A DNA stretch of 64,000 nt from Eunapius fragilis (lineage: Eukaryota; Porifera; Demospongiae; Spongillida; Spongillidae): contig OY811992.1 in assembly GCA_963681505.1 (NCBI GenBank), forward strand, positions 2,637,072 to 2,701,071. The letters run 5' to 3'. The notes beneath the pieces are model-generated. The model was not told the DNA's origin and did not search any database. It saw only the letters and a program-made list of their open reading frames with translations. The translations under genes and the position numbers were made by a program. Below, in pieces: positions 6,866 through 52,648 of this stretch; position 1 is the stretch's first letter; each line of letters begins with the position of its first letter.

Positions 6866-7043
6866 CTATAGATTGCCATATACATTTTCACTATTTCCCT
6901 CTGCTGTGTTCATAGTTGCTGATGAATGGCTGTTTACTTCCATATATTGTTCCTCGCTAGGACATGCAGGCTTGCAACCAACAAGATCATATGCAGCACA
7001 CTCTGACATTTGTATGCCAGGAATTGCAGTTTGATTTTCAGTG
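6866..7043 (-). CDS. Receptor terminal exon: cytoplasmic tail with tyrosine motifs
   Basis: The exon begins after a TTACTTACAG acceptor, takes up the phase left by the transmembrane exon and runs 59 codons to TAG. The tail has three Tyr motifs: AAYDLV, EEQYMEV and, ending at the last codon, ENVYGNL. The first two form YxxV-x11-YxxV, like an immunoreceptor tyrosine activation motif with a long spacer; the last has Tyr-x-Asn, the pattern bound by Grb2-type SH2 domains in animals. There are no hydrophobic segments. Signalling through Src/Syk-type kinases is an inference from the motifs. Two Cys follow the first Tyr motif (GCKPAC). Confidence 0.55.

Positions 7044-52648: not shown

Follow-up and report, generated by a model that had tools for sequence, protein, structure and literature searches.

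How does a sponge gene come to carry an extracellular stalk of many repeated modules, and what might such a stalk do? Sponges recognise self and microbes, and to our knowledge few of the receptors that serve this recognition are known. A sequence-only reading of 64,000 nucleotides of the Eunapius fragilis genome (the window; C22:2637072-2701071) had described a NIDO-SRCR-EGF receptor gene there and had interpreted the locus as one built for fast change in ectodomain length. That interpretation was half right: the main finding is a mosaic receptor in a clustered family with two signalling ends. The genome that we searched comprises 218,937,333 bases in 24 contigs; those discussed below are labelled C1, C2, C3, C11 and C22, the last being the window's own. 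The labels G1-G24 are our own names, and the gene models and classes of the paralogs were inferred from exon order and strand.

A predicted receptor gene of phase 1-1 modules

The predicted receptor gene occupies the minus strand from 52648 to 6866. Its 24 exons join into 3954 nt that encode 1317 aa with no internal stops, in the order signal, NIDO (two exons), domain X, SRCR 1, EGF 1, SRCR 2, EGF 2, SRCR 3, EGF 3, nine usable array EGFs, transmembrane (TM) exon and tail. Pieces joined from these exons matched the Pfam families NIDO (9.5e-51), SRCR (1.9e-26) and EGF_CA (3.3e-15). All the exons previously claimed were present on this strand at the coordinates given for them, with AG/GT borders bar one donor (20604-20482). 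The features, in window coordinates and with phases given as start/end, are as follows.

52442..52648, minus: exon 1, encoding a signal peptide (by eye) and the beginning of the head; ends in phase 0
47529..47801, minus: NIDO exon a, 0/0; Pfam NIDO 9.5e-51 on the joined head
46856..47087, minus: NIDO exon b, 0/1; part of the joined-head NIDO match
46301..46780, minus: exon 4, domain X, about 160 aa, 1/1; no Pfam or PDB sequence match
43733..43882, minus: SRCR 1, 5' exon; open frame, splice borders
42323..42493, minus: SRCR 1, 3' exon; donor GTTTGT
36758..36880, minus: EGF 1; open frame, splice borders
36269..36418, minus: SRCR 2, 5' exon; open frame, splice borders
35450..35617, minus: SRCR 2, 3' exon; donor GTTTGT
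35190..35312, minus: EGF 2; open frame, splice borders
32916..33030 (ends approximate), minus: dead EGF with an 8-bp deletion and a lost acceptor tract, from alignment
32396..32545, minus: SRCR 3, 5' exon; open frame, splice borders
31582..31752, minus: SRCR 3, 3' exon; donor GTTTGT
31311..31433, minus: EGF 3; open frame, splice borders
10617..27605, minus: ten tandem EGF exons of 123 bp, one per unit of about 1.7 kb; within the introns lie split, dead SRCR 5' exons together with dead EGFs of an older stalk type
27605, 25917, 24165, 22442, 20604, 18900, 15754, 13990, 12464, 10739, minus: high ends of the array EGF exons
20482..20604, minus: array EGF with AT replacing the donor GT
9833..33876, minus: twelve dead A-type EGF exons with a common deletion of 19 alignment columns
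33876, 29822, 26779, 25078, 23308, 21616, 19763, 16666, 14913, 13136, 11609, 9908, minus: first matched bases of the dead A-type EGFs
8759..8873, minus: junction of 7TM-class and single-pass homology; homology breaks at 8873 / 8822
7112..7259, minus: transmembrane exon, 1/2
6866..7043, minus: cytoplasmic exon with tyrosines in YDLV, YMEV and YGNL, then stop

The signal exon is in phase 0/0 and the NIDO exons in 0/0 and 0/1; exon 4, the three SRCR pairs and the 12 EGFs are 1/1, the TM exon is 1/2, and the tail runs to the stop. Every exon from exon 4 to the last EGF (19 of 19) is thus in phase 1-1, as the sequence-only reading had held, which makes the gene a 1-1 module mosaic. Such phasing, by strong indication of the exon borders, would leave the reading frame intact whenever a whole exon is added, disabled or skipped. 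A weak spot of the predicted model is the donor of the SRCR 3' exons, which in all three is GTTTGT, far from the usual GTRAGT.

The earlier count of 13 EGFs holds for open frames (EGF 1-3 and the ten array units), while only 12 have both splice sites. The two EGF losses it had described, one by donor loss and one by an 8-bp deletion, are both visible: the first is the array exon with AT for GT, and the second is an extra EGF at about 33.0 kb. The duplicated SRCR-EGF cassette was borne out as well, 36757-35190 being 92% identical to 32857-31311 over 1568 bp. Four features had escaped the sequence-only reading: the relics within the array introns, the absence of an EGF after SRCR 1, the junction near 8.8 kb and the cluster of paralogs.

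At the amino-terminal side, the signal, the two-exon NIDO and the one-exon X assign the gene to a NIDO-X receptor family on C22. Domain X had no Pfam match and no PDB sequence match up to E 1, and a model built without an alignment reached pLDDT 35, giving no usable structure. At the other side, a TM exon followed by a tyrosine-bearing tail exon assigns the gene to the single-pass class of C22. An adhesion-GPCR end was not found: the Ig, GAIN-like and 7TM pieces of paralog G8 were unmatched in the window at E 0.01. An ITIM reads (S/I/V/L)xYxx(I/V/L), and an ITAM is a pair of YxxL/I at a spacing of 6-12. By eye, the tail tyrosines stand in AAYDLV, EQYMEV and NVYGNL, which match neither these motifs nor the canonical spacing.

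A clustered family with two predicted ends

C22 carries further copies of the NIDO, X, EGF, TM and tail exons, most of them within about 1.2 Mb (2.32-3.56 Mb). This contig holds 14 of the 17 TM-exon matches in the genome, all 11 tail-exon matches, and 22 of the 51 match rows for domain X, some of which are fragments. By their predicted exons, the family members have two kinds of C-terminal end, one single-pass with a tyrosine tail and the other composed of Ig and 7tm_2 (adhesion-GPCR-like). The Ig exon has six C22 places at 89-100% among 32 matches, and downstream of it the 7tm_2 exons have seven C22 places at 92-100% among 66 matches. In G8 both domains were confirmed by Pfam; two further G8 pieces, GAIN-like by eye, matched no Pfam model. 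On C1 and C2, too, NIDO exons and exons of this 7TM are close neighbours. Not all heads conform to the scheme: G21 has a head like those of the 7TM class with no 7TM exon detected downstream, and two X exons lie in the G12 region.

At about 3.381-3.407 Mb on C22 two gene copies are offset by 15,873 bp in their NIDO, X, EGF and TM exons, which may reflect recent tandem duplication or be an artefact of assembly. Mirror-image NIDO genes with EGF arrays at 9.64-9.66 and 9.76-9.78 Mb on C3 are either an inverted duplication or a haplotype copy. A paralog at C22:2812259-2816874 has 25 EGF exons, almost identical to one another at the protein level, with a 184/194-bp period, and its array would be a very fresh expansion.

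A stalk amplified and probably exchanged

The receptor gene's neighbour at 2.7405-2.7225 Mb on C22, which we call the sister, carries one SRCR and 7 EGFs of the receptor gene's type, against three SRCRs and 12-13 EGFs in the receptor gene, and the head exons of the two share 81-94% protein identity. Stalks this different behind heads this similar bear out the part of the sequence-only reading that concerned speed: ectodomain length does appear to change quickly and without cost to the frame. The part that saw a locus built for such change did not stand. Symmetric phase 1-1 dominates among shuffled domains generally, according to passages of PMC4686782, and being so common it is a precondition found in many receptors and no evidence of special design here.

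In the sister an EGF (2735436) comes after SRCR 1; we found no counterpart of it in the receptor gene between 42323 and 36880. A retroelement-like block sits in that gap. It is one of three blocks of retroelement-like ORFs on the plus strand (47972-52064, 38006-41313 and 54721-59531), Ty3/gypsy-like by eye, two of them inside receptor gene introns and the third upstream. The plus strand also has an ORF at 1823-2548 that resembles a reverse transcriptase and, at 772-1398, a 208-aa multi-pass membrane ORF that by eye could be a partial GPCR.

The stalk type itself is shared with another contig. Among the best 150 of 705 candidates, 15 places match the SRCR 5' exon with at least 90% identity; 10 are on C11 and 5, spread over three genes, on C22, and the match that ranks after them reaches 75%. 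The receptor gene's EGF type appears on C11 in at least 39 rows at 3.737-3.772 Mb, with 73-93% identity (best 150 of 1617 candidates). This C11 region holds EGFs of the same type together with SRCR exons, and NIDO had no match on C11. The region is likely a relative or the source of the stalk, and copy number suggests C11 as the direction from which transfer came. Paralog G17, with the order dead old EGF, new EGF, SRCR, cut new EGF, old EGFs, carries both stalk types and would represent an intermediate state.

Comparison of the array units, which recur ten times at about 1.7 kb, strongly indicates that the stalk was lengthened by tandem duplication of this unit. In every unit compared, the initial portion of an SRCR 5' exon is separated by about 1 kb of different sequence from a second, short portion of that exon, after which comes the EGF exon; a C11 stretch that we examined has a truncated SRCR 5' exon and then an EGF, without the 1-kb piece. 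We rejected a transposon as the main origin of this piece within the dead SRCR exon, since it matches (81%) sequence upstream of the A-type EGF array of G8 and carries a dead EGF of that A type, the type seen in most of the other family members on C22. The thirty or so top matches to the 1-kb piece lie on C22; other contigs have distant copies, at 66-77%, of its middle alone (about query 356-840), and this stretch may be an older nested element. All 12 dead A-type EGFs aligned from the window have the same 19-column deletion, a site at which the G8 relic has a longer gap and the G17 relic lacks the shared deletion. The unit that was amplified thus already held a dead SRCR and a dead older EGF. 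Between 18.9 and 15.7 kb a missing EGF was considered and rejected, as that array unit has an extra 1.4 kb.

The sister's array expanded separately, because its units have deletions, one set common to five and another to three, that were not seen in the receptor gene's ten. These shared deletions are better evidence than a tree of EGF exons (24 rows), in which genes are only loosely separated and 11 of 19 inner branches are open.

The array exons are spared indels beyond chance: the ten EGF exons have none, whereas 460 columns of flanking intron have 17, and 4.55 would be expected in the exon (P about 0.011 if events are independent). Variable columns are slightly rarer in the array exon (0.175) than in the downstream intron (0.227). 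Purifying selection inside the array was not measurable by pN/pS (0.83) or by exon versus intron divergence, exon identity (0.948) being equal to intron identity (0.945), and the copies would be young or homogenised. Between the receptor gene and the sister, summed over nine exon pairs, dS is about 0.11 and dN about 0.06, a ratio of about 0.57. The ratio exceeds 1 in two short exons on few changes (SRCR 1 3' exon, 1.12; TM, 1.11), and we see no convincing sign of positive selection between the two sequences.

A putative variable-stalk recognition receptor

We consider a variable-stalk recognition receptor the most likely role for the predicted protein. Successive EGF copies are spaced Cys6-x-DxNEC, with one residue between Cys6 and the next DxNEC, a spacing found in calcium-binding EGF rods such as fibrillin. 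With this spacing, stalk length would scale with EGF copy number. The tandem EGFs, which match EGF_CA, would form a calcium-stiffened rod that sets the distance of the NIDO/X/SRCR head from the membrane; the head might bind a ligand on other cells, in the matrix or on microbes, and the phosphorylated tail would dock SH2 proteins, as its tyrosines in YDLV, YMEV and YGNL suggest. That the ligand concerns self or microbes is a reasonable guess, and one that agrees with how diverse SRCR and GPCR families are in sponges (PMC8242945, PMC4302439).

A plainer account is possible, although we would not bet on it: a receptor for adhesion or matrix binding, with no recognition role, in which stalk exons were duplicated in tandem and EGF number drifts neutrally. 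NIDO and EGF_CA domains are frequent in matrix proteins, and the equal divergence of array exons and introns, with the pN/pS given above, fits such drift. It sits less well with the absence of indels from the array exons, with a cluster that contains many copies of the head, and with a dN/dS against the sister that is high for a conserved adhesion molecule. This account is compatible with the mosaic origin described next.

Head and tail have different relatives

The two ends of the receptor gene resemble different classes of paralog. In domain X its p-distance is 0.086-0.118 to five 7TM-class heads and 0.186-0.238 to six single-pass heads, and the sister behaves likewise (0.091-0.121 and 0.180-0.222, respectively). 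A tree of X split five single-pass heads (G4, G5, G9, G14 and G18) from the other nine rows with support of 100/100 and, at 89/97, short of the level that the tool marks with a star, grouped the receptor gene and sister among the 7TM-class heads. The tail, in contrast, is nearest to single-pass G5 (0.054) and G4 (0.074), and its tree places the receptor gene and sister with these two at 100/100. The ratio of X to tail distance is 3.1-4.0 in four of 21 pairs, namely the receptor gene or sister with G4 or G5, versus 0.46-1.42 in the remaining 17. A tree built from the joined heads of six genes had little resolution.

The change of affinity can be located. From 9400 to 8873, intron sequence upstream of the junction follows 7TM-class G8 (83%); from 8822 the match is to single-pass G5 (82%), G4 (73%) and G9 (86% over 64 bp), starting in the middle of the last EGF exon of these paralogs. 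The sister matches the receptor gene on both sides, so the junction would be older than the split between the two. These comparisons strongly indicate that the 5' part (signal, NIDO, X and SRCR/EGF stalk) is of the kind present in paralogs ending in Ig and 7tm_2, that the 3' part is of the kind present in single-pass paralogs with a tyrosine tail, and that the parts meet at 8.87-8.82 kb. Formally, the tree of X and that of the tail can be reconciled, and the case for a chimera therefore rests on the distance ratios, the junction and the different ends.

It is unlikely, in our judgement, that there was no fusion, with the single-pass form ancestral, the 7TM class derived from it, the old tail kept and the likeness to G4 and G5 due to later gene conversion. 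The X tree gives this history some room, in that single-pass G2 branches beside the 7TM-class heads, and the X and tail topologies agree if the in-group is left unresolved; a beheaded EGF exon at the junction that matches G5 and G4, downstream of intron sequence matching 7TM-class G8, speaks against it. That the gene is simply broken, as the donor loss, dead EGF and retroelement-like blocks in two introns might suggest, is very improbable given that the lesions are confined to skippable 1-1 exons or introns, that 24 exons are still open, and that the signal, NIDO, X, SRCR, TM and tail exons compared are open in both the receptor gene and the sister.

We therefore hold it probable that the receptor gene is a mosaic single-pass gene in a clustered NIDO-headed family, with the rod-stalk recognition mechanism proposed above. 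A head joined to this tail would thereby have moved from G-protein-type to tyrosine-type output.

Discussion

A sponge SRCR protein, the aggregation receptor of Geodia cydonium, has reportedly been proposed to act in cell recognition; unlike the C22 gene, it is said to have a domain set without a NIDO head. Adhesion GPCRs of Amphimedon queenslandica with SRCR, EGF and Ig domains, described in parts of PMC4302439, resemble the 7TM-class paralogs of C22, which carry EGF and Ig and, in the case of G17, SRCR as well. They differ in that NIDO has 0 occurrences in the main text of that paper, and in that the C22 receptor gene is single-pass, the G8 pieces being unmatched in the window. SRCR receptors of Halichondria panicea with Sushi, fibronectin III or EGF domains, as passages of PMC8242945 present them, likewise combine SRCR with EGF, and a figure legend there has NIDO among other domains; the C22 gene differs by its NIDO and X head and by an SRCR that consists of two 1-1 exons in repeated cassettes. 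Its stalk exons, all symmetric 1-1, recall the extracellular module mosaics of exon shuffling outlined in portions of PMC4686782, although the C22 gene retains, side by side, fossil exons from both types of stalk as well as a junction that can still be seen.

Speculatively, and with more doubt than conviction, the C22 region might be viewed as a receptor workshop in which a shared NIDO-X head was moved between 7TM and single-pass ends while the stalk was swapped, imported from another chromosome and amplified, and which could underlie individual-specific recognition of self or microbes. The cluster provides named candidate receptors whose heads, stalks and ends appear to have recombined recently, with the junction and the discarded exons still readable, and the receptor gene would record the passing of a head between 7TM and single-pass output. 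It makes testable whether EGF number or head type goes with fusion or rejection between individuals.
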